From NCBI RefSeq assembly GCF_024385575.1, contig NZ_JANFMV010000001.1, positions 2,943,681 to 3,007,680 of the forward strand: a stretch of 64,000 bases of DNA, read 5' to 3'. The position numbers and the translations under genes are program-made. The notes below the pieces were generated by a model. It worked only from the letters and a program-made list of their open reading frames with translations. It searched no databases and was not told where the DNA came from. This DNA comes from Rhizobium sp. NRK18. GTDB taxonomy: Bacteria; Pseudomonadota; Alphaproteobacteria; Rhizobiales; Rhizobiaceae. Positions 40,157 to 52,941 of this stretch are shown here, in pieces. Position 1 is the stretch's first letter; the number at the start of each line of letters is the position of its first letter.

Positions 40157-40207
40157 GCAAATAAATGTGCCGTGGTAATGAACCTTTCGGCCATCCGGGA
40201 ACACTTA
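40157..40207 (+). promoter_or_regulatory. ECF-type promoter of the sigma factor operon
   Basis: TGAACC (40179-40184) and CACTTA (40202-40207) are separated by 17 bases. The block AATGAACCTTT-N14-CACTTA recurs exactly upstream of ribA (47542-47572). The upstream box GCAAATAAATGT (40157-40168) recurs at the dehydrogenase promoter. Transcription would start near 40214, 24 bases before the sigma factor ATG, implying autoregulation. Confidence 0.75.
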
Positions 40208-40237
40208 ACGGTGCAGACAGCAAGGCGACACATCAGA

Positions 40238-40837
40238 ATGGGCATACTCAAAGCCGTCCGGTCGACATTCAAGGCAGGCTCCGCCGACGCGGATCTGCGC
40301 CTTCTGAAAGCGATCGCGGCCGGTGACGTGACCGCGTTCGAGCGGCTGCATGGTCAGTATTTTCCGAAGCTGATGCATTTCGCCAAGCGGGTCATCGACA
40401 ATGAAGAGGCCGCCGAAGAGATCGCCAATGACACGCTGATGGTGGTCTGGCGGACCGCCGACCGGTTCGAGGGACGCTCGAAACCCTCATCGTGGATCTT
40501 CGGGATCGCCTACCGGCTGGCGCTGAAACAGGCGCGCAGCAACGGCCGGCACAAGGGAACGGTGGCACTGGAGGAAGACATGGCGCAGGACGAACAGGAC
40601 ACCGCCGACGCCATCATGAACCAGAAGGATATCCACGCGGCCCTGCAGCAGCTGACGCCAGAGCTGCGCGCCGTCGTGGAGCTCACCTATTACAACGGTT
40701 ATCTCTACAAGGAGATCGCCGACATCCTCGGCTGTCCCGTCGGCACCGTGAAGACGCGGATGATGACCGCGCGCCAACGCCTGCACGCCATGCTGTCCGA
40801 CGATTTGCCCACCTATTCGGAGAACGCCGTTGCTTGA
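40238..40837 (+). CDS. ECF-family RNA polymerase sigma factor
   Basis: A 199-residue sigma-70 family group 4 factor. Region 2 spans about 28-95 (FERLHGQYFPKLMHFAKRV through RSKPSSWIFGIAYRLAL). Region 4 spans about 135-190 (LTPELRAVVELTYYNGYLYKEIADILG, then PVGTVKTRMMTARQRL). It should be held by the zinc-finger anti-sigma factor encoded next and released by a periplasmic or redox signal. The ATG at 40238 fits the predicted promoter. In-frame upstream codons lie before or inside that promoter. Its stop lies within the anti-sigma start region, so the two are coupled. Confidence 0.93.
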   Translation: MGILKAVRSTFKAGSADADLRLLKAIAAGDVTAFERLHGQYFPKLMHFAKRVIDNEEAAEEIANDTLMVVWRTADRFEGRSKPSSWIFGIAYRLALKQARSNGRHKGTVALEEDMAQDEQDTADAIMNQKDIHAALQQLTPELRAVVELTYYNGYLYKEIADILGCPVGTVKTRMMTARQRLHAMLSDDLPTYSENAVA

Positions 40838-41453
40838 CCGTCGCCCCCTCCTGCCCACTGACAGTCACGAAGGCATCATGGAGCTCGTCCCGTGGTATGT
40901 GAACGGCTCCCTGCCGAAGGACGAGGCGGATGCCGTGAAGCGCCATGCGCTCACCTGCCCCGCATGCGCCGATGAAATTGCCCGCCAGCGCAGGCTCGCC
41001 GGCCATGTCGCGACGGAGGAAGCGTTCGAGGCCCCGGTCGCCCGCAGCTGGGAGACCCTGCGTGACCGGATCGCCTCCGAAAACCGCGTTCGCCAGCCGG
41101 CCTTCAGCCTCTGGACCTGGCTCAGGCAGCACCAGGCTGGCATGATGCTCTCGGGCGTCGGTGCTGCGGCTTGCGTGCTGGTCGCGGTGATGATGATGCC
41201 GACCAATGCCGACTTCCGGACCCTGACGGCGAGCGGCACTGCGGCCAACGACACCATCAAGTTCCAGACGACGCCCGGCGTCAGTGCCAGCGAGCTGCAG
41301 TCCGTTCTCGGAAAATACGGCCTGGAACTGGAAAGCGGTCCGTCGAAAGCCGGCGTCTACACGACGAAAGCGAAGAGCGGCACCGATCTGGCGGCCCTTT
41401 CGAAATCGCTGATGTCCTCGCCCGAAATCATCTTTGCAGCACCGGCCGAATGA
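40830..41453 (+). CDS. Membrane zinc-finger anti-sigma factor with protease-prodomain-like tail
   Basis: A 207-residue membrane protein. The cytoplasmic zinc-binding anti-sigma domain has H39-x3-C43-x2-C46 (RHALTCPAC). One membrane segment spans about 103-123. The periplasmic part, about 140-207, has the pattern TPGVSASELQSVLGKYGLEL, SGPSKAGVYTTK and SSPEIIFAAPAE, which resembles the N-terminal prodomains of subtilisin-like proteases and I9 inhibitors. I infer that it may bind the subtilisin encoded next. It starts with TTG at 40830, preceded by GGAG, overlapping the sigma gene by eight bases; the next gene overlaps its stop as ATGA. Confidence 0.88.
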   Translation: MLDRRPLLPTDSHEGIMELVPWYVNGSLPKDEADAVKRHALTCPACADEIARQRRLAGHVATEEAFEAPVARSWETLRDRIASENRVRQPAFSLWTWLRQHQAGMMLSGVGAAACVLVAVMMMPTNADFRTLTASGTAANDTIKFQTTPGVSASELQSVLGKYGLELESGPSKAGVYTTKAKSGTDLAALSKSLMSSPEIIFAAPAE

Positions 41454-42631
41454 CCATGACCCGCACCGCTCTAGCCGCCCTGATCAGCCTTGCCACAGCG
41501 TTTTCGGCTGCTGCCCAGTCCGCGCCGCCCGAGCCGCCCTACCGGCTGGTTCCGGCCAATTCGATTGCGGCAAACACGCATCTGATCCTCACCGTGCCGC
41601 TTGCCGATCGCAATGGCATCGATGCGCTGGCCGACGCGCTGGAGGCGACGTATCACGTCACGCTGACGGCGGAATGGCCGCTTTCCGCCATCGGCGTGCA
41701 CTGCCTGGTGATGGATATCGACCGCAACACGGACGTCGACCGGCTGATGGCCGACCTCAGCGCCGACCCTAGGATCAGGACCGTGCAGCGCGTCCAGGAT
41801 TTCGACACGTTCGAGACGCCCTACTCCGATCCTTATTATCCTGCGCAGTATGCGCTTGCCGAGATCAATGCCGGACCGGCGCAGAAGATTTCGAAAGGCG
41901 CCGGGGTGAAGGTCGCGGTGGTGGATTCGGCGATCGACGGATCCCATCCCGACCTTGCCGGACGGCTGGCGTCGTTTCACAATTTCGTCGACACGCAGCC
42001 GGCCGACACGCTGGCCGAAGCCCACGGCACCGCGATGGCCGGGATCATCGCCGCCGATGCGGCCAACGCCACCGGCATCGTCGGCGTCGCGCCGGAGGCA
42101 AATCTCAGCGAATTTCGAGCCTGCTGGCAATCGCCGGGCGGTCCCGGTCACTGCAACAGCTTCTCGCTTGCCCGAGCGCTCAACTTCGCGATCGTCAACG
42201 ACTTCGACATCATCAACATGAGCCTCGGCGGGCCGGCCGATCCGCTTCTGGAGGAACTTGTCCAGTCGGCGATCGGCAAGGGTGTCGTCGTCATCGCCGC
42301 CTGGGGAGACGGCAAGACGCCCGCCTTCCCGGCCTCGGGACCCGGCGTCATTGCCGCCGGAAAATCCGCCGACGAGGGCATTCCGGCCCCGGCCGTCGAC
42401 GTCATCTCGACGGCGCCGCATGACGACTACCGCTACGTATCCGGCTCGTCGGTGGCGACTGCGCATGTGACCGGCGTCGCCGCCCTGCTGCTCGCCGCAA
42501 AACCGGGGCTGAGCCCCCAGCAGGTGAAACAGGCGCTGGAAGCTGGTGTGACGACGCGCGACGGGGCGCCGATGCTGGATGCTTGCAAGGCGCTGCATTC
42601 GGTCATGCCGGACGCGCCGGCTTGCGAATGA
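41450..42631 (+). CDS. Secreted S8 (subtilisin-like) serine peptidase
   Basis: A 393-residue exported protease. The signal peptide is about 1-23 (ends AAAQS). A prodomain-like region follows (about 42-116), ending in DPRIRTVQRVQ. The catalytic triad is D159 (VAVVDSAIDGSHPDL), H192 (AHGTAMAGIIA) and S334 (GSSVATAHVTG). The stretch that normally reads AAGN, with the oxyanion-hole Asn, reads AAWG (283-286), so activity may be reduced or specialised. It is the third gene of the ECF operon and may process the anti-sigma factor or be inhibited by it. No other protease gene for anti-sigma cleavage is present here. Confidence 0.9.
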   Translation: MTMTRTALAALISLATAFSAAAQSAPPEPPYRLVPANSIAANTHLILTVPLADRNGIDALADALEATYHVTLTAEWPLSAIGVHCLVMDIDRNTDVDRLMADLSADPRIRTVQRVQDFDTFETPYSDPYYPAQYALAEINAGPAQKISKGAGVKVAVVDSAIDGSHPDLAGRLASFHNFVDTQPADTLAEAHGTAMAGIIAADAANATGIVGVAPEANLSEFRACWQSPGGPGHCNSFSLARALNFAIVNDFDIINMSLGGPADPLLEELVQSAIGKGVVVIAAWGDGKTPAFPASGPGVIAAGKSADEGIPAPAVDVISTAPHDDYRYVSGSSVATAHVTGVAALLLAAKPGLSPQQVKQALEAGVTTRDGAPMLDACKALHSVMPDAPACE

Positions 42632-42690
42632 GCGGTGCGACCGACGGCGACCGACGATTCGCGTCCTGATTGTCTTTCCGCTACTTTTTC

Positions 42691-42729
42691 TTGCCGGTGA
42701 TGAACCATCAGGGGCGCAATGGGTACTCA
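42691..42729 (+). promoter_or_regulatory. ECF-type promoter of cytochrome b561
   Basis: TGAACC (42701-42706), a 17-base spacer and TACTCA (42724-42729). The upstream context TTGCCGGTGATGAACC is nearly identical to TTGCCGGCGAATGAACC before ribA, and both are preceded by a pyrimidine run (ACTTTTT). It should drive cytochrome b561 and the RibD-type reductase gene behind it. Confidence 0.68.
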
Positions 42730-42791
42730 GTTGCAGATGACGACGGCAAGGGGCGGTCGTCTATCACTTCGGGGACATATTGGAGACCAGA

Positions 42792-43367
42792 GTGCTGAAC
42801 ACGATCGAAACAGAGGCGCATGAAGGCGTCACCGGGCCGTCGCAGGCGTTTATCCGCGTGCAGCGATATCCGGCGACGACGCGCATTCTTCACTGGGCGA
42901 TCTCCGCCCTCGTGCTCATCACATGGCCCCTCGGCTTCGTCATCCACTTCATCAAGAACGAATCCTCCCTGAGCTTCTACAACGTGCATGAAAGCTTCGG
43001 CTTCATCATCCTCTGGCTGATGCTGGTCCGGGTCGGCAACAAGCTGCTGACCCGCAGCCCGGAGCACGAAGGTCCGGCCATCGAGAAATTCGCGGCCAAT
43101 GCCGTGCACGGTCTGCTCTATGCCTTCCTGATCATCATGCCGGTCACCGGCTTTCTGGCGACCAATGCGCATGGATTTCCGCTGGAATGGTTCGGCCTCT
43201 TCGAGGTCTGGAGCCCGATCGGCAAGACACCGAGCATCGCCTGGACGCTTTCCGGCATCCACTACTGGAGCGCATGGATCCTGCTGGCCCTTTTTGCGTT
43301 ACATATTGGCGCCGTGCTTATGCATCATGTCATCAAGCGCGACGTGACGCTCTACCGGATTCTGTAG
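42792..43367 (+). CDS. Cytochrome b561 family protein
   Basis: A 191-residue di-heme membrane cytochrome with four hydrophobic segments. The heme-ligand histidines are in TRILHWAISALVL, FYNVHESFGFIIL, ANAVHGLLYAFLII and LFALHIGAVLMHH. Such proteins transfer electrons from quinol to periplasmic acceptors such as superoxide or small redox molecules. I start at GTG 42792 because TTGGAGACCAGA provides a ribosome site; a TTG at 42780 is possible. The RibD-type reductase follows 29 bases later. Confidence 0.88.
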   Translation: MLNTIETEAHEGVTGPSQAFIRVQRYPATTRILHWAISALVLITWPLGFVIHFIKNESSLSFYNVHESFGFIILWLMLVRVGNKLLTRSPEHEGPAIEKFAANAVHGLLYAFLIIMPVTGFLATNAHGFPLEWFGLFEVWSPIGKTPSIAWTLSGIHYWSAWILLALFALHIGAVLMHHVIKRDVTLYRIL

Positions 43368-43396
43368 GAAAGACCTTGGCGATACAGTCGATCGAC

Positions 43397-44188
43397 ATGA
43401 CAGACGAAACCTGGAAACGGCTCCTTGCCTTGAGGCAGAGAGCCGCGGCCCGTCCGCAGGCGCATGATCCGGCGCTTGCCGTCTATGGCCCGATCGCGGA
43501 GGCGAAAGGCCGGTTCGTGCTGGCCCAGGTGGGCCAGTCGCTCGACGGCCGCGTGGCAACCCCGGCGGGCGACGCCCGCGACATTTCCGGACCGGACGGG
43601 CTTGCCCATCTGCACCGTTGCCGAGCGCTGGTCGATGCCGTCATCGTCGGCGAACACACGGTCTCGGCAGACGATCCGCGGCTGTCTGTCCGCCTCGTTG
43701 CCGGCCCCAGCCCGGTTCGCGTCGTCATCGACTGTCACGCGCGGCTGACGGGCACGGAGAGCCTGTTTTCCGATGGCGGAGCGCCGGTCATCGTGTTTCG
43801 CAGCGCAGAGGCCGAAGGCGCGCCGCTCGGCAATGCCGAGGTGGTCCGCCTCTCGCCCTGCGAAAACGGGCTGGCGACGAAGGACATCCTGGACGCGCTT
43901 GGCGCACGCGGTCTCGACCGGATCCTGGTCGAGGGTGGCGCCAGGACCATTGCCCGCTTCATCGAGGCCGGCCTCGTCAACCGCCTGCACGTCGCGGTGT
44001 CGCCGATCATCATCGGCTCCGGACCAAGCGGCATCAGCCTGCCGCCGATCGAACGCCTCGCGAGCGCCCATCGCCCGGACACGAAAGTCTACAGTCTCGG
44101 CAGCGACATCCTGTTCGACTGTCTGCTGAAGCCGGGAAGCCCATCACCCTCGAAAGGCGATGAGGTCCAGGTGACCGACTTCGCATAG
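43397..44188 (+). CDS. RibD C-terminal-type pyrimidine reductase
   Basis: A 263-residue dihydrofolate-reductase-fold protein of the RibD_C family. FVLAQVGQSLDGRVAT (40-55), VGEHTVSADDPRLSVR (about 80-95) and DRILVEGGARTIARFIEAGLV are the family blocks. There is no deaminase domain, and residues 1-38 are unlike one. In riboflavin synthesis this fold reduces the ribosyl chain of the GTP cyclohydrolase II product with NADPH. Next to a second GTP cyclohydrolase II and a PTPS-like gene it probably acts in a dedicated pathway. Its 3' end overlaps the convergent methyltransferase gene by 45 bases. A TTG upstream is an alternative start. Confidence 0.87.
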   Translation: MTDETWKRLLALRQRAAARPQAHDPALAVYGPIAEAKGRFVLAQVGQSLDGRVATPAGDARDISGPDGLAHLHRCRALVDAVIVGEHTVSADDPRLSVRLVAGPSPVRVVIDCHARLTGTESLFSDGGAPVIVFRSAEAEGAPLGNAEVVRLSPCENGLATKDILDALGARGLDRILVEGGARTIARFIEAGLVNRLHVAVSPIIIGSGPSGISLPPIERLASAHRPDTKVYSLGSDILFDCLLKPGSPSPSKGDEVQVTDFA

Positions 44189-44938
44189 GCTGCCGGGCCT
44201 GCCGATCGCCTCGATGCGGAAGGACAACCAGTCCTCGATCTCGTCGGTCGACCTGCCGGACATTTCCACGAGCGGCTGGTGGAAGCCGAGGAGAAAAGCC
44301 TCCTGCAGCGCGGCCGACGACGCATCCATCCGCCACGGGCTCGGTCTCGTGAACACCGCGTAGCCGCTTGCGCCGAGATGTCTTTCCAGACAGGCGGTCG
44401 CACCCGGCCCCAGAGCCGGACCAAAACCCTTGTCGGTCTGCTGGTGCCGGTTGAAGGCAGCGACCATGTCGCCATCGAGCGGATGGGCGTACGACCAGGA
44501 AACGACGCCATCATAATTCAACGCCGCATAGAGCCCGCAGCCATGCTCGGCCAGTCGCTGTACGAAGGCTGCACAGAACTCGTCCGACACCAGATCGAAC
44601 AGCGCCGAGGCGGTGATGACGGAGATGTCCTCGAGAGGCAGGGCGTCGAGATCGGTGAGATCGAACGGCCGGTAGCCGACGTTGTCCGCTGCACCGATCC
44701 GGCGTTCCGCTTCTTCAAGCAGCAGCGGATCGTGATCGAGCAGGAGCCAGCGGGTATCGGCAGGCAGATGGTCGACGAGGCTGCGCCATGTCGAGCCCGT
44801 GCCGCAGCCGATATCGAGAATGGCCGGATCTTCGGCATCGTGCAGATGACCGGCAAGCATGCCGGTAAGGACGGGGTCACGGGCCGCCCTGTCGGCCGGT
44901 TCGCGCAGCGCCAGCCAGTCCTTATCGAAGCCGCTCAT
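44144..44938 (-). CDS. SAM-dependent methyltransferase
   Basis: A 264-residue class I methyltransferase with motif I ILDIGCGTGSTWRSL near 57-71 and an acidic residue after the second strand (LLLDHDPLLLEEAERR). The later region is family-specific, with LYAALNYDGVVSWSYAHPLDG. The acceptor is unknown; in this cluster a pterin-like or glycosyl product is a reasonable guess. It is the last of four genes (dehydrogenase, PTPS-like, glycosyltransferase, methyltransferase) joined by ATGA overlaps, starting at the ATG 44936-44938. Confidence 0.85.
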   Translation of the reverse strand: MSGFDKDWLALREPADRAARDPVLTGMLAGHLHDAEDPAILDIGCGTGSTWRSLVDHLPADTRWLLLDHDPLLLEEAERRIGAADNVGYRPFDLTDLDALPLEDISVITASALFDLVSDEFCAAFVQRLAEHGCGLYAALNYDGVVSWSYAHPLDGDMVAAFNRHQQTDKGFGPALGPGATACLERHLGASGYAVFTRPSPWRMDASSAALQEAFLLGFHQPLVEMSGRSTDEIEDWLSFRIEAIGRPGSLCEVGHLDLIAFRG

Positions 44939-45978
44939 AGCTGCGCCTCCAGGGTTTGGGAGATGATCCGCGCCGTCTCCGGCCAATCAGGCAGTTTCTC
45001 ACCGGCCCGTCGGGCGGCATCGGCCATTCGGCGGCGCAAGGCTTGATCGGACAGCAGCGTGCGGAGCGATCCGGCGAAGGCTTCGACGTCGTCGGCCGGC
45101 GTCAGGAAGCCCGCCTCCTCCGGCACCACCTCGGGAATGGCCCCGGCCCGGCAGGCGACGATCGGCAGGCCCTGCGACAGGGCCTCGGCGAACACCATGC
45201 CGTAGCCCTCATAGCGGCTCGCCAGCGCGAAGATATCGCCGGTCGCCATCAACTGGCGAATGTCCTCGCGCTCGCCAATGAGCGAGATGCGACCCGAAAG
45301 ACCAAGCCTTTCGATCTGCGCGGCAAGTGCCGCCGCCGTTTCGGGATGCAATGTCCTGCTGCCGGCAATCGTCGCCCGCCATGGCAGGTCTTCAACGCTC
45401 TTCAAGGCATCGATCAGCACGTCATGGGCCTTGCGCGGCGTCAGCGTGCCGACGGCAACGATATGCGGTGGCTCGCCGTTTCCGGGCGCGAGCGGGGCCG
45501 GACTGGTGCCGGGCGGCGCGACGGTGATCCGCTCCCGCTCCACGCCAAAATTGGCAATCAGTTCGCGGGCCGTGCCGTTGGACGTCACGACGACATGGCG
45601 CACGACGGACAGCGCCCGTTGTTCGCTTTCATGCAGACGCGCCTGCGTTTGCGCGTCGATGCCGCTTTCGAGCGCAAGCGGGTGGTGGACGAGAGCAACG
45701 ATCCTCAGCCGCGCCGCCTCTCGCCCCGCCCATTCGTCGAGAACACCGAAGGCGAGACCGTCGATCAACACGAGGGTGCCATCGTCGAGAGCAGACAGCC
45801 GGCTTTCGGCTTCGCGCCTTGCCTCCGGCGTCGGTGCCGGGAACCCCTCGCCCAGGGGCAGCAGGCTGACGGACCAGCCGAGCGCCTGCAGCCCAACGAT
45901 CATCTCGCGGTCATAGCCGTAGCCGCCGGTCTTCAATTGCAGGTCGCCGGGATAGGCGAAGACGAGATCCCGGCTCAA
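44935..45978 (-). CDS. Family 4 glycosyltransferase
   Basis: A 347-residue GT-B glycosyltransferase. The C-terminal nucleotide-sugar domain has PHIVAVGTLTPRKAHDVLIDAL, DIFALASRYEGYGMVFAEALSQGLPIVACRAGAIPEV-type E-x7-E elements (here given as separate family blocks), and the N-terminal acceptor domain begins VFAYPGDLQLKTGGYGYDREM. It transfers a sugar from a nucleotide donor. Its position between PTPS-like and methyltransferase genes recalls pterin glycosyltransferases of cyanobacteria, but the acceptor here is inferred. It overlaps both neighbours by four bases. Confidence 0.88.
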   Translation of the reverse strand: MSRDLVFAYPGDLQLKTGGYGYDREMIVGLQALGWSVSLLPLGEGFPAPTPEARREAESRLSALDDGTLVLIDGLAFGVLDEWAGREAARLRIVALVHHPLALESGIDAQTQARLHESEQRALSVVRHVVVTSNGTARELIANFGVERERITVAPPGTSPAPLAPGNGEPPHIVAVGTLTPRKAHDVLIDALKSVEDLPWRATIAGSRTLHPETAAALAAQIERLGLSGRISLIGEREDIRQLMATGDIFALASRYEGYGMVFAEALSQGLPIVACRAGAIPEVVPEEAGFLTPADDVEAFAGSLRTLLSDQALRRRMADAARRAGEKLPDWPETARIISQTLEAQL

Positions 45979-46373
45979 AGCTCGGCCTCGTACCAGCCGC
46001 GGGCAACATGCGATTCATGCAGGGTCACGCGGATTTTTGCGATGCGATGGCTGCCGGGGCCGAGGCGCTTTTCGCCGACCGCCTTCTTGAGCTCGTCGAA
46101 GATGTGCTTGGCGATCACTTCCGTCGTCGACACCTTGCCCTTGAAGGCGTCGAGATTGTCGAGGTTCTGGTAGTTGAGCGGCTTGACCACCTCGCCCAGC
46201 ACCGTCGTCGCGGCGCCGATGTCGACGGCAAGCCCGTCCTCGTCGACGTCGGCGGTGAAGAATGCGGCATCGACCACGAAGGTGGCACCGTGGGTTGCCT
46301 GGGCTGGACCGAATACGGGACGGGGAAGGCTGTGGGCGATCATGATATGATCGCGGACTTCGACTGCAAACAT
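45975..46373 (-). CDS. 6-pyruvoyl-tetrahydropterin synthase-like protein, non-canonical active site
   Basis: A 132-residue protein of the PTPS/QueD fold. The first zinc histidine is kept (H14 in MIAHSL). The C-x3-H-G-H block reads AQATHGA, so the catalytic Cys is missing and the third zinc His is Ala30. The catalytic L-D-H block reads LNY (66-68). E120 (LHES) is kept. It is therefore unlikely to be a standard PTPS or QueD and may bind a pterin or catalyse another step. The ATG at 46371-46373 follows GAAGAGAC; a longer frame has no support. It is the second gene of the minus-strand operon. Confidence 0.85.
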   Translation of the reverse strand: MFAVEVRDHIMIAHSLPRPVFGPAQATHGATFVVDAAFFTADVDEDGLAVDIGAATTVLGEVVKPLNYQNLDNLDAFKGKVSTTEVIAKHIFDELKKAVGEKRLGPGSHRIAKIRVTLHESHVARGWYEAEL

Positions 46374-46386
46374 GTCTCTTCTTTCT

Positions 46387-47385
46387 TCAGTAGCGGATGC
46401 GGTGGCACAGCGTGCCGGGGTCGGACAGGATGTTCGGATAGGCGGAGGCAATGTCCGCGAAGGCGGTCTCGCCGGAAATCAGGGCATCGAGGCGATCGTC
46501 GGCCAGCAGGTCCAGCGCCTTGGCGAGCCGTCTGGCAAAGCTCCAGCGCGCACGCCTTGCCGGGGGAACTGCCCCGACCTGCGAGCTGATGAGCGACAGC
46601 CGTCTGGAATGGAATGCGCCGCCGAGCGGCAGCGACACGTCTGCATCGCCATACCAGCTCGCCTCGACGATGCGGGCCTCGAAGGCTGCATGCTCGAGCG
46701 CTTGGGCAAGTGCCGCGCCGGAGGCGGAGGCATTGATGAGGACGTCGAATTCGCCGAAAAGGCTTTCGCTTTCCGCGAAGGGTATGCCGAGGCTGCCAGC
46801 GAGATCGCGGCGGTCCGGATTGCGGTCGACCAGCACAACGTCCGTGCCGATGATGCGGCTTGCGAGGTATGCGACCAGCGAGCCGACGACACCGGCGCCG
46901 AAGACCGCCACCCGGTCGCCGGGCAGGATGCCGGCATCCCAGACGATGTTCAGCGCGGTTTCCATGTTGGCGGCCAGAACGGCGCGCTCGGGCGGCAGAT
47001 TGTCCGGCAGCGGCACGACCATATCCGCGGTCGTGACGAATGCCGACTGATGCGGATGCAGGCAGAAGACGGTCCGGCCCAGGAGATCGCCATCCCCTGC
47101 TTCGACACGCCCGACGAGGCAATAGCCGTATTTGACCGGAAAGGAGAAATCGCCGGCCATATGCGGTCCGCGCATGCGCTGGCGTTCCGCGTCCGGCACC
47201 TTGCCGGCGAAGACCAGCGATTCCGTGCCTCGGCTGATGCCGCTGAAAAGGGCGCGGACCAGCACGTCGCCTTTTTCGGGCGCGCGGAGCATTTCCGGGC
47301 GCAGCTCGCATTCCCCCGCGGAGGAGAACCACAGGGCCTTGGCCTGACCTTCAATCACATTCGCCGCCACAGTCTGACCATCCAA
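46387..47385 (-). CDS. Medium-chain dehydrogenase of the pterin-like cluster
   Basis: A 332-residue (with this start) alcohol-dehydrogenase-fold protein: AGECELRPEM near the N-terminus, FSGISRGTESLVFAG, KYGYCLVGRVEAG and the nucleotide motif VAVFGAGVVGSLVAYLASR. The structural-zinc four-cysteine lobe is absent. Related proteins act on cyclitols, sugars or bacteriochlorophyll-type side chains. The ATG at 47467-47469 would be in frame but lies inside the upstream promoter box; TTG 47385, preceded by TGGAGAAA, or GTG codons at 47370 and 47358, fit a transcript starting near 47421. The substrate is unknown; it may oxidise or reduce the side chain of the product. Confidence 0.82.
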   Translation of the reverse strand: MDGQTVAANVIEGQAKALWFSSAGECELRPEMLRAPEKGDVLVRALFSGISRGTESLVFAGKVPDAERQRMRGPHMAGDFSFPVKYGYCLVGRVEAGDGDLLGRTVFCLHPHQSAFVTTADMVVPLPDNLPPERAVLAANMETALNIVWDAGILPGDRVAVFGAGVVGSLVAYLASRIIGTDVVLVDRNPDRRDLAGSLGIPFAESESLFGEFDVLINASASGAALAQALEHAAFEARIVEASWYGDADVSLPLGGAFHSRRLSLISSQVGAVPPARRARWSFARRLAKALDLLADDRLDALISGETAFADIASAYPNILSDPGTLCHRIRY

Positions 47386-47427
47386 TTTCGCGTTTCTCCA
47401 ATCCAATCCGCTGTGCTTTTCACATCG

Positions 47428-47479
47428 TAAGTACGCTTCAGCCGGAAAATGGTTCGGTGCAGCCGACATTTATTTGCCG
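47428..47479 (-). promoter_or_regulatory. ECF-type promoter of the dehydrogenase operon
   Basis: On the minus strand CGAACC (47456-47451), a 17-base spacer and TACTTA (47433-47428). Just upstream is GCAAATAAATGT, identical to the box before the sigma factor promoter. It lies back to back with the ribA promoter. It drives dehydrogenase, PTPS-like, glycosyltransferase and methyltransferase genes. Confidence 0.7.
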
Positions 47480-47532
47480 GACGCGTCAAGGCGACCCCGT
47501 AAACAAGCCCGTTGCCGCGGCCGTCACTTTTT

Positions 47533-47572
47533 TTGCCGGCGAATGAACCTTTGACTGGCGTTCAGGCACTTA
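47533..47572 (+). promoter_or_regulatory. ECF-type promoter of ribA
   Basis: TTGCCGGCGAATGAACC followed by a 17-base spacer and CACTTA (47567-47572). The block AATGAACCTTT-N14-CACTTA is identical to that before the ECF sigma factor. Transcription would start near 47579, 28 bases before the ribA ATG. Confidence 0.75.
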
Positions 47573-47606: not shown

Positions 47607-48713
47607 ATGGCAATGGCAGCGAGCACTCCGTTTCAATTTTCGACGCCGGCAATGGATGTGGAGCGGGCCGTTGCCGAACTTCGGTACGGCCGCCCGGTGA
47701 TCATCAGGGACGGCAAGCAGCGGCTGGCGGCGCTGGCGCTCGACAGCGTCGCGCCGGATCTCTACGACCAGTTCGCAGCCGCCGTCGGAAACACACAGGC
47801 GCTGTTTCTGACCGCAGAGCGCGCCGCAAAGCTGGGTTTATCCGCCGAAGATGGCATCGCCGTGCCGTTGAAGGACGTCTCCTTTGCCGAGGCATCCCGA
47901 CTGGCCTATGCCCTCGATGTCGACAAGCCGCGCCTCTGGCAGGACGGCGATGCGGCCATGCAGGCGGCGGCGGAGCTTGCCCGCACCGCCCTGCTGCTGC
48001 CGGCCGTCATCTGCGCCGACGTCACGGAAATCGAAGACCGTTTCGCCGCCTGTTGCTCGCTCGACCATGGCTTGCTGGCAAAGGTCAGCGCGGCCCGTCA
48101 GACGTTCGAGATCGTGGTGCGCACGCCCGTTCCGCTGAAGGATCTGGGGCGGGCAGACTTCGTCGTCTTCCGTGGCGGGCTGGCGCAGAAGGACCAGGTC
48201 GCGATCGTCGTCGGCAAGCCGGACACGTCCCGGCCCGTTCCGGTGCGCATCCACTCCTCCTGCCTGACGGGCGATCTCTGCGGATCGCTGAAATGCGATT
48301 GCGGCGACCAGCTGCGCAACGGCCTTCGCCAGCTGAAGGAAGCGGGCGGCGGCGTGCTCCTCTATCTTGACCAGGAAGGTCGCGGCACCGGCATCGGGGC
48401 CAAGATGCGCGCCTATGGCTACCAGCATAAGGGCCTCGACACGATCGATGCCGACGCCATGCTGGGCTTTGGCGAAGACCACCGCCGCTACGAGGCGGCG
48501 ATCGCCATGCTGAGGCTGCTCGGCATCGCAAAGGTGGTGCTGCACACCAACAATCCGAGCAAGATCGCCGCCTTGAAGGCGGGAGGGATTTCCGTCGAGG
48601 CGCGGGTCGCCGTCACCGGCACGGTCAATGACGAGAATGTCCGCTATCTGGAGACGAAAAGGCTCCGCGCCGGCCACATGATCGACCTCAGCGCGATGAT
48701 CGCGGCGGAATAG
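47607..48713 (+). CDS. ribA: GTP cyclohydrolase II with degenerate RibB-like domain
   Basis: A 368-residue RibBA-like protein. Residues 170-368 are GTP cyclohydrolase II: zinc ligands C219, C230, C232 (C-x10-C-x-C), YLDQEGRGTGIG (usual YLRQEGRGIG) and HTNNPSKI. Residues 15-165 align with DHBP synthase (RPVIIRDGKQRLAALAL, LTAERAAKLGL), but the acidic catalytic loop D-D-E-D-R-E-N-E-G-D is gone, so this half is probably inactive. It opens GTP to a diaminopyrimidine, the precursor of riboflavin, toxoflavin-like azapteridines or other pterins. In this setting it likely supplies a specialised product and not riboflavin. It heads an operon with the lipid-type genes. Confidence 0.9.
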   Translation: MAMAASTPFQFSTPAMDVERAVAELRYGRPVIIRDGKQRLAALALDSVAPDLYDQFAAAVGNTQALFLTAERAAKLGLSAEDGIAVPLKDVSFAEASRLAYALDVDKPRLWQDGDAAMQAAAELARTALLLPAVICADVTEIEDRFAACCSLDHGLLAKVSAARQTFEIVVRTPVPLKDLGRADFVVFRGGLAQKDQVAIVVGKPDTSRPVPVRIHSSCLTGDLCGSLKCDCGDQLRNGLRQLKEAGGGVLLYLDQEGRGTGIGAKMRAYGYQHKGLDTIDADAMLGFGEDHRRYEAAIAMLRLLGIAKVVLHTNNPSKIAALKAGGISVEARVAVTGTVNDENVRYLETKRLRAGHMIDLSAMIAAE

Positions 48714-48723
48714 GCGGGCGGCG

Positions 48724-49512
48724 ATGGACCTGACATTTCCCTCTCCCCCGAACGACGGACGGCAGCCTGGCCAAGCGCTGCCGCCGCACCTCTTCGCCAA
48801 TGCGATTGCAATCCTTGCAAGCGTCTTCGTATCGTCGATCGTGCTCTCCTACATCCTGCGGCCGCATCTGGCGCTCTGCGCCAGCGCGCTCGCCTTCGCA
48901 AGCGTGCTGACGCTCGTCATCTTCGCGCTTGTGGTGCGCGGCCTGCCCTATCACCGGCACAAGGTCTTCGGCGCCGCCAATGCCGTGACCGCCATTCGCA
49001 CCGCCATCGTCAGCCTTCTGGCCGCGACGGTGTTCTTCGCCATCGACATGCACGCTCCCGCCTCGGTGCTGTGGATCATGATCGGCCTCGTCATGCTGGC
49101 GCTCATTCTCGACGGTTTCGACGGCTATCTGGCGCGTGCGCTGGCGCAGGAATCCGATCTCGGGGCCCGCTTCGACATGGAGGTCGACGCCCTCCTCATT
49201 CTCGTCCTGTCGGCGGCGGCGCTGTTTCTCGACAAGGCCGGCGTCTGGGTGCTGGCGATCGGGCTGATGCGCTACGGTTTCATCGCCGCGCAATATGCGA
49301 TGCCGGCGCTTGGCGCACCGCTGCCGCCATCCACCCGCAGGAAGGCAATCTGCGTGGTGCAGGTCGCCGCTCTCTGCATCATTCTCGTTCCAATCGTTCA
49401 GCCGCCATTTTCCAGCGCCATCGCCGCCGCGGCGCTGGCCCTGCTCGCCTATTCCTTTGCGGTTGACACCTCCTTCCTGCTTGGGAAAGGAGCGCCACGG
49501 CCATGCAAATGA
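48724..49512 (+). CDS. CDP-alcohol phosphatidyltransferase
   Basis: A 262-residue membrane enzyme with about six hydrophobic segments. The active-site motif is DGFDGYLAR followed by GARFD and a further Asp (D-G-x2-A-R-x8-G-x3-D-x3-D type), all acidic ligands present. It joins a CDP-activated lipid or alcohol to an alcohol acceptor. In this cluster the acceptor might be a polyol or the pterin-like product, but housekeeping phospholipid synthesis cannot be excluded. It starts ten bases after ribA and overlaps the next gene by ten bases. Confidence 0.86.
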   Translation: MDLTFPSPPNDGRQPGQALPPHLFANAIAILASVFVSSIVLSYILRPHLALCASALAFASVLTLVIFALVVRGLPYHRHKVFGAANAVTAIRTAIVSLLAATVFFAIDMHAPASVLWIMIGLVMLALILDGFDGYLARALAQESDLGARFDMEVDALLILVLSAAALFLDKAGVWVLAIGLMRYGFIAAQYAMPALGAPLPPSTRRKAICVVQVAALCIILVPIVQPPFSSAIAAAALALLAYSFAVDTSFLLGKGAPRPCK

Positions 49513-50255
49513 AAACGCGACTGGATACCGCCGCCGGTCTCGCCCGGTCGCTTGCCATCTATTACGGCCAGCCCTGGCGCCGGCAGGCGCTGAGACGCTT
49601 CTACGAAGGGCTCGTCTCGCCGGGCGATCTGGTGTTCGATATCGGCGCCCATGCCGGCAGCCGCAGCAAGACGCTGCTGTCGCTTGGCGCGCAGGTGGTG
49701 GCCGTCGAGCCGCAGCCTGTCTTCGCCGACCTGATCGAGAAGCATTTCGCCGGAAGGCTGGCGGGCTTCGAGCGCGTCGCCGTCGGCGCGGAGGTGGGAG
49801 AGATATCGCTGCGGATATCCAGCCGCCATCCGACGGTCACCAGCACGTCGCGCCGCTTCATCGACAGCGTGCGCGATGCCGACGGTTTCCGGCAGGTCAG
49901 ATGGGACCGGGAGATCACCGTACCGATGACCACGCTCGACCTGCTTATCGAGCGCTACGGACGACCGGATTTCTGCAAGATCGATTGCGAAGGCGCAGAG
50001 GCGGATATCCTTCGGGGCCTTTCCAGTCCGGTCAGACTGATTGCCTTCGAATATATCCCGGCCATGCCATCGGTGACGCGCGAGGCGATCGCGCGGCTGA
50101 CGGCGCTTGGCGATTATCGCTTCAACCGCGTCGTCGGCGAAAAGCACCAGTTCATCAACAGCGGCTGGAAGGATGCCATCGCCATGCTGAGGGAACTGGC
50201 GGAACTGCCGCCGGCAAGTCCGTCGGGCGACATCTACGCCCGGCTGGAATCCTGA
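49503..50255 (+). CDS. FkbM-family methyltransferase
   Basis: A 250-residue SAM-dependent methyltransferase of the FkbM family. Motif I is LVFDIGAHAGSRSKTLL near 43-58, VVAVEPQPVFADLI follows, and FCKIDCEGAEADIL is the family-defining second block. Members methylate hydroxyls of polyketides, sugars or polysaccharides. It overlaps the preceding gene and is the last plus-strand gene of the ribA operon. A possible second start is two codons later. It is 12 bases from the convergent flippase-like gene. Confidence 0.86.
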   Translation: MQMKTRLDTAAGLARSLAIYYGQPWRRQALRRFYEGLVSPGDLVFDIGAHAGSRSKTLLSLGAQVVAVEPQPVFADLIEKHFAGRLAGFERVAVGAEVGEISLRISSRHPTVTSTSRRFIDSVRDADGFRQVRWDREITVPMTTLDLLIERYGRPDFCKIDCEGAEADILRGLSSPVRLIAFEYIPAMPSVTREAIARLTALGDYRFNRVVGEKHQFINSGWKDAIAMLRELAELPPASPSGDIYARLES

Positions 50256-50269
50256 TGGCGAGGCATTCC

Positions 50270-51196
50270 TCAAGCCTTTCCGATGCGGCCCTGCCAGAGC
50301 GAGACGGCGACCGAGATCAGTCCCGGTATGGCGGCGCCAACCAGCGAGAGAAGGCCGTAGGCAAGGCTTGCCGCCAGGCCATCGACGCTCGCATAGCCGA
50401 ACAGCGGCCAGAGTGCCGCCGCCGCCGTTTCCCGCGTGCCCCAGCCGCCAATACCGGCGGGTATCAGCATGGTCAGAAGGCACAGCGGAATGACGGTGAA
50501 GGCGGCGATCGGCGGCAGCGGGGCGCCCACGGCGTCGGAGGCGATCATGAAGGTGGCGATATAGCCGCCGACGATCAGCACCCCGAGGCCGGCCTGCACC
50601 AGCCACGCGCCGTCCTTCCAGAACACGGCGGCGAGGTCCGGTCCGAGACCGCGAAAGCGGGCCGGCAGCCGGGCGTTCCGCAGGGCAATGGCGAGGCCGA
50701 GACCGGCAATCACAAGCGCGGCCGCAATCCAGATCACCACACCGAAATTGCCGGGAAGCTTCCCGCCGAGGAAAAGCGGCCAGGCGATGAGACCGCCGCA
50801 GACCAGCGCGAAGAAGACCAGCTGGCCAGACAGCCGTTCCAGAAAGACGGCGGCGGCGGGACGCTTCCAGCCGCCCTCGCCTTCGGCACGGCTGCGATAG
50901 GCACGCACCGCATCGCCGGCCATGCCGCCCGGCAGGACGAGGTTCAACGCGCTGCTGACATAGTATTCGCGGATCGCCACCGACAACGGCATTTCCTGAC
51001 CGAGCCGCCGCGCGGTAAAGCGCCAGCGCCAGGCGGACGCGACGATCTGCACCTGCACTGCGGCAAGCGCGGCGATGATGTGGCCGGGCGGCACCTTCTT
51101 GAGGGTGTCGATGAGTTGCGTGGTGCCGGTCGCCCAGATCAGGGCTGCCAGCAGCGCGAGGCAGAGAAACGCCGACATGACGGCAAGCTTGCGCAA
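50270..51196 (-). CDS. Lysylphosphatidylglycerol synthase/flippase-like membrane protein (UPF0104)
   Basis: A 308-residue integral membrane protein with about eight hydrophobic segments. VSSALNLVLPGGMAGDAVRAYR and IPAGIGGWGTRETAAAAL are the two signature regions of the AglD/MprF-N superfamily, which moves or modifies membrane lipids and glycan carriers. I start at TTG 51196 (LRKLAVMSAFL) because AGGTGG precedes it and the N-terminus looks right; an ATG six codons later is the alternative. It is on the strand opposite to ribA and the sulfatase-like gene. Confidence 0.83.
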   Translation of the reverse strand: MRKLAVMSAFLCLALLAALIWATGTTQLIDTLKKVPPGHIIAALAAVQVQIVASAWRWRFTARRLGQEMPLSVAIREYYVSSALNLVLPGGMAGDAVRAYRSRAEGEGGWKRPAAAVFLERLSGQLVFFALVCGGLIAWPLFLGGKLPGNFGVVIWIAAALVIAGLGLAIALRNARLPARFRGLGPDLAAVFWKDGAWLVQAGLGVLIVGGYIATFMIASDAVGAPLPPIAAFTVIPLCLLTMLIPAGIGGWGTRETAAAALWPLFGYASVDGLAASLAYGLLSLVGAAIPGLISVAVSLWQGRIGKA

Positions 51197-51285
51197 CGTT
51201 CCACCTTTCCCGGACTGCCGCGTGACGATGACCAGACTACCGCCGAAAGCCAATCGGTCGGCCCAGCATTTGAAAGACCCTGTCG

Positions 51286-52941
51286 ATGACAAGAAATGAC
51301 GCGCCGGGCAAGAGCGGCGATGCATCAATGACCAGATTGCTGCTCGCAGGCCTGTTCTTCCTCCTCATCAGCTTTGCCGCACTGACCCTGCCGGATCATC
51401 CAGGTGCCTTCTCGCTCGGCGCCTTCCTGCGCCTGCCGCTGGAAATTCCGCTACTTCTTCTTCTCCTGCTCCTGCTTCCCCGCCGTCCGGCAAAGATCCT
51501 CGCTGCTGCGTCGTCCGTGGCGGTCTTCGCGCTCCTGTTCCTGAAGATCGCCGATATCGGCGTGCAGTCCGCCTTCCAGCGCCGCTTCAATCCCTATCTC
51601 GACGTCAAGATGCTCGGCGACGGCTGGAATATCTTCTCCGGCTCCATCGGGCTCGTGCCGGCCGGCCTCGCCGTCGGTGCCGTGATCGGTGTCTTCTGCC
51701 TGTTGCTCTTTCTGTTCTACCGCTCGCAGTGCCGGATCGCCGGCCTTGTCGGGAGCATGAGGCGCAGCGCGACGGTTGCCGCCTCCGGACTGCTTGTGCT
51801 CGGTGTCGGGCTCTGGCTTGCCGGTCCGTTTGCCGGCGTGCGCGCGGATTTGCGCGCCGTCTCCTATCTCGGCAACCGGCTCACACTGGTGCAGCAATCC
51901 ATTGCCGACATGCGGCAGTATGAGCGCGATCTCGTCGCCCACGATCCGGCAGCCGGCGAGGCTAACCTGTTTTCCGGCATCAAGGGCCGTGACGTGGTGC
52001 TGATCTTCGTCGAATCCTATGGCCGCAGCGCCGTCGAGGATCCGCGTTACAGTCCGCTGATCAAGCCGCGGCTGGCGGCATCCGAGGCGCAATTGTCGGC
52101 CGCCGGCTTTGCTTCGGCCTCCGGCTGGTCGCGCTCGCCGACCATGGGAGGGCTCAGCTGGCTGGCGCACGGGACATTTCTTTCCGGACTTTGGACCGAC
52201 AATCAGGCGCGGTACGACCGGCTGATGATCAGCAAGCGGGCGAGCCTCAACAGCCTGTTTCGCAAGGCCGGGTGGCGGACGGCGGCGGTGATGCCGGCGA
52301 TCACCATGGACTGGCCGGAGGCGCGCTATTTCGGTTACGACGACATCTTCGTCGCGAAGGATCTCCGCTACAAGGGCAAGCCCTTCAACTGGATCACCAT
52401 GCCGGACCAGTACACCCTGTCGGCCTTCCAGCGGCTGGTGCGCGATCCGGCCCGCGCCAAGGGCCAGCCGGTGATGACGGAAATGGCGCTGATTTCGAGC
52501 CATGCGCCCTGGACCCCGGTCGCCAAACTGATCGACTGGAACGAAGTCGGCGACGGAACGGTCTTCAACGGTCAGGCCGAGAGCGACGAGAGCCCCCGCG
52601 CCGTCTGGTCGGACGGCGACAATGTCCGCCGTCACTACATCGCCACCATCGACTATTCGCTGCAGACGCTCAGCGACTATATCTCCCGCTTCGGCGACGA
52701 TGCCATCTTCATCATCCTCGGCGACCACCAGCCGGCGCCGATCGTCACCGGGCCGGATGCGTCAAGGGCAGTGCCCGTGCACATCATCAGCCGCGATGCA
52801 GCACTGGTCGCCCGCTTCGAAAAGGAAGGCTTCGTCAACGGCATGCTGCCCTCGCCCGATAGCCCCGAGCTGCCGATGGACACGATGCGCGACCGGCTGA
52901 TCCGGGTGTTCTCAGCGAATGACACGACAGCCGGCGGGTAG
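51286..52941 (+). CDS. Membrane-anchored sulfatase-like (LtaS/OpgB-type) transferase
   Basis: A 551-residue protein. Five hydrophobic segments fill about residues 15-185. The periplasmic domain has the alkaline-phosphatase-superfamily metal sites: VVLIFVESYGRSAV, the nucleophile region SPTMGGLSWLAHGTF, and ILGDHQPAPIV. Relatives transfer phosphoglycerol or phosphoethanolamine to glycans and lipids. It is divergent from the flippase-like gene. The ATG at 51328 is another possible start. No ECF-type promoter is seen before it. Confidence 0.83.
   Translation: MTRNDAPGKSGDASMTRLLLAGLFFLLISFAALTLPDHPGAFSLGAFLRLPLEIPLLLLLLLLLPRRPAKILAAASSVAVFALLFLKIADIGVQSAFQRRFNPYLDVKMLGDGWNIFSGSIGLVPAGLAVGAVIGVFCLLLFLFYRSQCRIAGLVGSMRRSATVAASGLLVLGVGLWLAGPFAGVRADLRAVSYLGNRLTLVQQSIADMRQYERDLVAHDPAAGEANLFSGIKGRDVVLIFVESYGRSAVEDPRYSPLIKPRLAASEAQLSAAGFASASGWSRSPTMGGLSWLAHGTFLSGLWTDNQARYDRLMISKRASLNSLFRKAGWRTAAVMPAITMDWPEARYFGYDDIFVAKDLRYKGKPFNWITMPDQYTLSAFQRLVRDPARAKGQPVMTEMALISSHAPWTPVAKLIDWNEVGDGTVFNGQAESDESPRAVWSDGDNVRRHYIATIDYSLQTLSDYISRFGDDAIFIILGDHQPAPIVTGPDASRAVPVHIISRDAALVARFEKEGFVNGMLPSPDSPELPMDTMRDRLIRVFSANDTTAGG

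Follow-up and report, generated by a model that had tools for sequence, protein, structure and literature searches.

Results

The window studied here, a stretch of 64,000 nucleotides from the genome of Rhizobium sp. NRK18 (4,545,028 bases, reported as 100% complete), very probably encodes an autoregulated extracytoplasmic function (ECF) sigma factor regulon, that is, a set of twelve genes in all, made up of the sigma factor's own operon and the three operons of an adjacent pterin-type biosynthesis cluster. A first-pass annotation of this DNA had proposed such a regulon from four matching promoters, and the proposal, itself read from sequence, is supported by a whole-genome count of the motif, by a matrix trained on other species, by the conservation of the predicted sigma promoter, and by the motif's presence ahead of pterin operons in two other lineages. 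The four predicted promoters fit into 7.4 kb, each ahead of an operon:

40180..40207, + strand: predicted ECF promoter of the sigma factor operon, GAACC-N17-CACTTA (outside-trained matrix score 25.3, rank 1)
42702..42729, + strand: predicted ECF promoter of the cytochrome b561-ribD operon, GAACC-N17-TACTCA (16.4, rank 3)
47428..47455, - strand: predicted ECF promoter of the dehydrogenase-PTPS-glycosyltransferase-methyltransferase operon, GAACC-N17-TACTTA (13.1, rank 4, the weakest)
47545..47572, + strand: predicted ECF promoter of the ribA-CDP-alcohol transferase-fkbM operon, GAACC-N17-CACTTA (19.8, rank 2)

In each of them GAACC (starting at 40180, 42702, 47455 on the minus strand, and 47545) is followed after exactly 17 bases by YACTYA, and all four of the GAACC/17-base spacer/nACTnA sites that had been described are present. 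The sigma factor and ribA promoters (sites 1 and 4) are indeed identical over AATGAACCTTT-N14-CACTTA, and 30–50 bases separate the end of the -10 element from the proposed start codon at the four operons. A scan of the whole genome for GAACC-N17-YACTYA gave 4 matches, all 4 of them the sites listed above; a reversed-pattern control gave 3 matches. Within the window, the same four sites and no others are recovered when one mismatch is allowed. Over 100 window shuffles, a looser pattern (GAACC-N18-ACTNA) averages 0.14 matches and never exceeds 2. At high stringency, no target other than the pterin cluster is seen in this genome. Sigma-70-like sites number 4 in the region versus 1.3 expected, with none at the four operon heads, and terminators show no excess (5 versus 5.7 in shuffles).

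Short boxes, alike in pairs, lie upstream of the -35 elements:

40157..40168, + strand: box GCAAATAAATGT, 11 bases ahead of the sigma promoter -35
47466..47477, - strand: second copy of box GCAAATAAATGT, 10 bases ahead of the dehydrogenase promoter -35
42691..42700, + strand: box TTGCCGGTGA, ahead of the cytochrome b561 -35
47533..47542, + strand: box TTGCCGGCGA, ahead of the ribA -35

The 12-mer GCAAATAAATGT has just these two copies in the window, and the claim that the sigma factor and dehydrogenase promoters share it is borne out. The other claimed box, TTGCCGG(C/T)GA, does stand ahead of the cytochrome b561 and ribA -35 elements, but it has five copies in the window and is therefore weaker evidence. 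These last two promoters (42683–42706 and 47526–47549) have a longer stretch in common, ACTTTTT..TTGCCGGYGA.ATGAACC, as if one had been copied from the other. Support for an A/T-rich UP-element ahead of the -35 is weak (35–50% A+T versus 36% in the window), and the idea was set aside.

For a matrix owing nothing to the window, orthologs of the sigma factor were sought in named genomes (the best 80 of 100 stretches encoding a relative), 18 of which (L005–L022) encode proteins 56–70% identical to it. The matrix was built from 16 ortholog sigma promoters (L005–L020), L021 and L022, which have no such site, being excluded, and scans were made over the fetched loci. Since a GAACC rule served to select the sites for training, the scores these sites receive are in part circular, while those of the window, of genes on the type VI secretion system (T6SS) side of orthologous loci, and of pterin operons are independent. 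This matrix ranks the four window sites 1–4 (25.3, 19.8, 16.4, and 13.1), the next score in the window being 9.0. In leave-one-out scoring, 15 of the 16 ortholog sigma promoters reach 16.7–31.2 (L007, where the spacing differs, has 7.9), the upstream regions of the divergent L021 and L022 sigma genes reach 4.9 and 3.9, and that of G286, a genome outside the training set, reaches 28.9. The predicted promoter of the sigma gene itself is, then, conserved across most orthologs. As background, 99% of 1740 random 330-mers from the same loci, a draw that includes sigma-bearing loci, score below about 8.3, with a maximum of 19.8.

The genes concerned form four operons (3 + 2 + 4 + 3) in which they overlap or are closely spaced, and two further genes adjoin them:

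40238..40837, + strand: ECF sigma factor of 199 aa, limited to regions 2 and 4 (Sigma70_r2 and Sigma70_r4_2, both over their Pfam cut-offs)
40830..41453, + strand: anti-sigma factor with a zf-HC2 domain (PF13490, 30.4 bits versus a cut-off of 22.2) and, by eye, a hydrophobic segment
41450..42631, + strand: S8 subtilase (Pfam), with a signal-peptide-like start and D/H/S motifs by eye
42780..43367, + strand: cytochrome b561 (Pfam)
43397..44188, + strand: RibD_C reductase without a deaminase domain (Pfam), here ribD
44144..44938, - strand: S-adenosylmethionine (SAM) methyltransferase (Pfam)
44935..45978, - strand: GT4 glycosyltransferase (Pfam)
45975..46373, - strand: PTPS homologue of the SCO6650 type (Pfam and PDB sequence match)
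46387..47385, - strand: BchC-like zinc-binding dehydrogenase, TTG start proposed (match to the BchC model below its cut-off)
47607..48713, + strand: GTP cyclohydrolase II (RibA), PRK08815 equivalog (domain/equivalog match)
48724..49512, + strand: CDP-alcohol phosphatidyltransferase (Pfam)
49503..50255, + strand: FkbM methyltransferase (Pfam)
50270..51328, - strand: LPG-synthase-TM protein (Pfam), cluster neighbor without a site (upstream matrix score -0.2)
51286..52941, + strand: large membrane protein, sulfatase-like by eye, cluster neighbor without a site (upstream matrix score 1.2)

Operon 1 holds the sigma factor, anti-sigma factor, and subtilase; operon 2, cytochrome b561 and ribD; operon 3, the dehydrogenase, PTPS, glycosyltransferase, and methyltransferase; and operon 4, ribA, the CDP-alcohol transferase, and fkbM. 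The claim that a site precedes every operon of the cluster holds for these four but not for the last two genes in the list, which accompany the cluster in many relatives. The large membrane protein has no Pfam family even at E ≤5, apart from one chance-level match. There is no sign of recent foreign origin in the G+C content (0.651 in the sigma operon versus 0.641 in the window).

The sigma module and the pterin cluster can be told apart by their distribution. Of 61 relatives, 18 have the dehydrogenase (the window genome counted), as do 79 of 394 genomes of the family (the window genome and G286 counted), as against a sigma ortholog in 2 of the 394; among 397 genomes of the order, the sigma factor is present in five, namely the window genome and four of one Cohaesibacter-type genus. 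The pterin-type cluster is thus widespread, separate from the sigma factor, and usually without it. We compiled 20 sigma-less clusters, from 16 of the 17 other dehydrogenase-bearing relatives among the 61 (a weak match, G041, was omitted) and from 4 family genomes. The dehydrogenase, PTPS, glycosyltransferase, and methyltransferase are present in all of the first 16, of which 14 have cytochrome b561 close by, 9 have ribD, and 7 have ribA. In none of the 20 do two operon heads reach 12; their cytochrome b561, dehydrogenase, ribA, and CDP-alcohol transferase heads all score 6.0 or less, and among their other genes one, the glycosyltransferase of L174, scores 12.7.

On the sigma-bearing side, the dehydrogenase occurs in 7 of the 13 genomes searched out of the 18 sigma-bearing named loci, and these 7, the window genome, G286, and three further Cohaesibacter-type genomes make up 12 genomes with both sigma factor and cluster. 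At least two pterin operon heads score at least 12 in 7 of these 12, as against 0 of the 20 sigma-less clusters (Fisher p = 2.4e-4, uncorrected for kinship). The seven are the window genome, Roseibium litorale, R. suaedae, and the four Cohaesibacter-type genomes, the last with sites at cytochrome b561 (23.3–25.4), ribA (22.6–24.2), and the sigma gene (23.4–27.3); in the two Roseibium genomes, the motif lies ahead of cytochrome b561 and the dehydrogenase.

Elsewhere, the usual home of the sigma-anti-sigma-subtilase module is a T6SS locus, which, like the usual absence of the sigma factor from the cluster and the two neighbors without a site, goes beyond the first-pass annotation. TssB and TssC adjoin the module in 17 of 22 sigma loci (L005–L022, G286, and the three further Cohaesibacter-type genomes); they were not found in L013 (a short contig), L016, L020, L021, or L022. 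Downstream of the module in orthologous loci come genes for a peptidoglycan-binding-domain protein, a Tll0287-HAMP protein, a protein kinase, and T6SS components (by Pfam, ImpA_N, VipA, Pkinase, and Tll0287-HAMP in L009; VipB and Hcp in L008). In L005, L006, L007, L010, L012, and L130, the motif is found ahead of both tssB (15.3–28.1) and the peptidoglycan-binding gene (12.8–25.0), and in L014, L015, L017, and L019 ahead of the Tll0287-HAMP gene (17.5–24.1). The T6SS-side sites of L008 (Cohaesibacter marisflavi) are weak (10.9 and 9.1), and in L009, L011, and L018 no motif was seen at the heads tested apart from the sigma promoter. Scores assigned to TssC in L014, L015, and L017 lie within the tssB coding sequence and likely reflect conserved coding rather than promoters. 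Roseibium has the motif clearly ahead of both T6SS-side genes and pterin operons, and in the Cohaesibacter-type genomes it is strong at the pterin operons and weaker at T6SS genes.

Some further occurrences of the motif were noted in these loci. It stands ahead of TssK-like genes (G669 and G735; named by eye) and of a VanY-/extensin-like peptidase-type gene (by eye; G669, G286, L011, L017, and L018), and also ahead of a gene for a small secreted protein, PF03640-like by eye (L011 at 5694, L013 at 9342), which suggests that this protein is a further regulon member. A second sigma copy (60%) in L016 (Loktanella sp. D2R18), on the same contig as L011, lies near a TssM-like gene (by eye) and has its own motif.

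In the window, the sigma operon stands directly upstream of cytochrome b561, and its module does not sit in a T6SS locus: the sheath proteins VipB and VipA were not found by profile search of the genome, searches in each of which 1 of 14 control genomes was positive. In the four Cohaesibacter-type genomes, T6SS, sigma factor, and pterin cluster lie within one ~46-kb stretch, and in G286 within about 52 kb. To derive the window arrangement from one like that of Cohaesibacter by merely deleting the T6SS is too simple an account, because the sigma factor of the window flanks the cluster on its opposite side. In a tree of the pterin cluster, the window and Cohaesibacter sequences are weakly grouped (0.56) inside a supported clade with the sigma-less G406 (0.998), and Roseibium falls outside this clade; the tree is thus compatible with one gain of the sigma link as well as with several.

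Discussion

Several observations weigh against the proposed regulon. The seven positive genomes represent three lineages rather than seven independent cases, and five of the 12 genomes with both parts (R. halophytocola, G286, R. album, Albimonas, and Oceanicella) have no motif at their pterin operons, so the sigma-pterin link is not obligatory. The dehydrogenase site, which reads CCGAACC, has the lowest of the four scores and falls inside the off-cluster background, and the one-mismatch form of YACTYA reaches four matches in 6 of 100 window shuffles. Best matches anywhere in 16 sigma-less loci go up to 18.5, away from the tested operon heads. Scoring in the window genome took in 8 off-cluster cores selected by eye, 3 sites of the cluster, and 30 loci (L138–L167); off-cluster sites there score 13.8 (L154) and 12.8 (L162), and two one-mismatch sites score 20.1 and 17.4, both within or antisense to unrelated genes and ahead of no sense gene. 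Finally, a relaxed pattern has 159 matches in the genome (~100 of them listed) versus 172 in the control; with no excess, weaker targets are indistinguishable from background, and the idea of further regulon members in this genome was set aside. Taken singly, scores of 13–18 are not rare in larger scans; what carries weight is that several sites stand together at operon heads.

The alternative that survives best, although we regard it as improbable, is that the sigma factor drives its own operon only (and perhaps a lost T6SS), the sites at pterin operons being leftovers or belonging to another ECF sigma factor of the genome whose specificity overlaps. Other ECF sigma factors of the order do have a similar -35 (GAACC...CGACTGA near 36–39% paralogs in L087 and L091), and the five genomes with a cluster but no motif fit this account as well. 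The -10 of the pterin sites, however, agrees with that of the sigma factor's own promoter, the 20 clusters without an ortholog have no sites even though two of them (G054 and G055) come with a 36–39% paralog, and the same pairing is seen in Cohaesibacter and Roseibium. It is more improbable still that the motif is the conserved binding site of some other regulator overlapping the promoters: the common boxes GCAAATAAATGT and TTGCCGGYGA do suggest extra protein contacts, but the bipartite form, fixed 17-base spacing, and typical distance to the start codon speak for a promoter, and the motif lies ahead of most sigma orthologs while missing at the pterin operons of sigma-less genomes. That similar sequences merely came together by chance in a genome rich in G+C is hardly credible, for although three control matches and the scores of 13–18 elsewhere make single matches cheap, the four real ones lie together, each ahead of an operon and none elsewhere, are ranked on top by an independent matrix, and recur in other lineages.

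For the autoregulated regulon, we propose the following scheme. An envelope signal would inactivate the putative membrane anti-sigma factor, perhaps through cleavage involving the adjoining subtilase, and the freed sigma factor would steer RNA polymerase to the GAACC-N17-CACTTA promoters of its own operon and the three pterin operons, amplify itself, and so switch on an envelope-directed pteridine pathway starting from GTP. The C-terminal domain of the anti-sigma factor is modeled as beta-alpha-beta-beta-alpha-beta with pLDDT >90 (pTM of the whole protein just 0.37), the order found in subtilisin prodomains. The idea that it is a copy of the subtilase prodomain was nevertheless set aside on sequence comparison (hhalign probability 6.7); Pfam gives a Fervidolysin_NPro-like match below cut-off (E 0.048), and there is no convincing sequence match in the PDB. 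Since sequence comparison thus lends no support to a prodomain relation, a part for the subtilase in cleavage is put forward as a proposal only.

As to the pathway, the earlier description of the cluster as pterin-like fits its GTP cyclohydrolase II, PTPS, and RibD_C proteins. The sole PDB sequence match of the PTPS up to E 0.001 is Streptomyces coelicolor SCO6650 (3d7j; E 1.3e-37), and the window has the dehydrogenase-PTPS-methyltransferase core together with a GTP cyclohydrolase that marks an SCO6650-type pterin cluster. The GTP cyclohydrolase II keeps (by eye) a cysteine motif and a catalytic tyrosine, which we take to be its functional residues, and the pathway probably starts from GTP. 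The cluster core also occurs on plasmids of Streptomyces, Palleronia, Methylosinus, and Haloarcula (L189, L190, L191, and L192). GTP cyclohydrolase is annotated in three of these four copies and none is shown in the Methylosinus stretch; Haloarcula has GTP cyclohydrolase IIa in place of II, and the Streptomyces copy adds a creatininase-family gene alongside GTP cyclohydrolase II. According to the available part of PMC9478397, a creatininase-family member of Sinorhizobium meliloti is a formamidase acting on an early intermediate. In view of such replacements in other copies, the pathway may really be entered through an early pyrimidine of the riboflavin type. That the product is lipid-linked or destined for the envelope, as the CDP-alcohol transferase and the membrane proteins hint, is speculation.

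Among known systems, the alphaproteobacterial ECF15 general stress sigma factors (RpoE2/EcfG) have a cGTT-type -10 and NepR/PhyR switching, unlike the zf-HC2 anti-sigma factor and subtilase found here. They are alike in their GGAAC-type -35, as in the rpoE5 promoter (PMC6180224, Table 1), and RpoE2 has 320 targets, according to the available text of that paper. The same text describes S. meliloti ECF26 (RpoE1/3/4/6) as having a membrane anti-sigma factor and mostly small regulons, much as predicted for the present alphaproteobacterial case, and RpoE6 adjoins a serine protease gene as the window sigma factor adjoins a subtilase (PMC6180224). The ECF26 consensus (GGAATA at -35, GT at -10) differs, however, from GAACC/CACTTA, and these sigma factors target sulfite genes and others; the text available mentions neither pterin nor cyclohydrolase, nor does it mention ribA or cytochrome b561, T6SS not being among the words checked (PMC6180224).

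Xanthomonas citri EcfK-PknS (ECF43) likewise joins an ECF sigma factor to a T6SS, which it controls via phosphorylation by its kinase, as far as the available parts of PMC13147305 and PMC8103513 go, and the T6SS loci of our orthologs contain a Hanks-type kinase gene. In ECF43 the usual acidic pair of region 2.2 is replaced by uncharged residues and the partner is a kinase (PMC13147305, available part), whereas the window sigma factor has a zf-HC2 anti-sigma factor and a subtilase, retains one acidic residue of the pair (motif AxxExxND, by eye), and is accompanied by no T6SS sheath genes and by no kinase gene among the Pfam-scanned genes of the locus; it falls outside the ECF43 definition. SCO6650 resembles the window PTPS, and the Streptomyces plasmid has similar genes including GTP cyclohydrolase II, but it also has the creatininase-family gene, and the part of it that is shown carries no annotation of cytochrome b561 or of RibD; the records examined here link SCO6650 to no ECF factor. 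In the open PMC literature, a scope mostly outside subscription papers, no paper among the matches listed joins an alphaproteobacterial ECF sigma factor, a T6SS, and this cluster.

The regulon of the window is, on the sequence comparisons above, best read as what is left of a T6SS-plus-pterin programme, or as such a programme put to new use. A bolder version, which we hold only tentatively and think rather unlikely, is that one ECF module would jointly switch on a T6SS and a widespread pteridine pathway, whose product, a membrane-linked pteridine, would protect the envelope or serve in antagonism, and that, in the window's lineage, the weapon has gone while the regulator still drives the chemical arm; this version draws on the CDP-alcohol transferase, LPG-synthase-TM protein, and cytochrome b561 that travel with the cluster. 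In evolution, a joint regulon may have lost its T6SS, or the sigma factor may have been recruited anew. Either way, the window offers a natural case of a regulator from whose usual regulon one branch has vanished or never arrived. Because the sigma factor goes with T6SS loci and, in three lineages, also with the cluster, there is a lead on a possible role in bacterial competition or envelope stress, and for a pterin-type gene set that spans Rhizobiaceae, Streptomyces, and haloarchaea, the sigma link gives a handle on its product and role.

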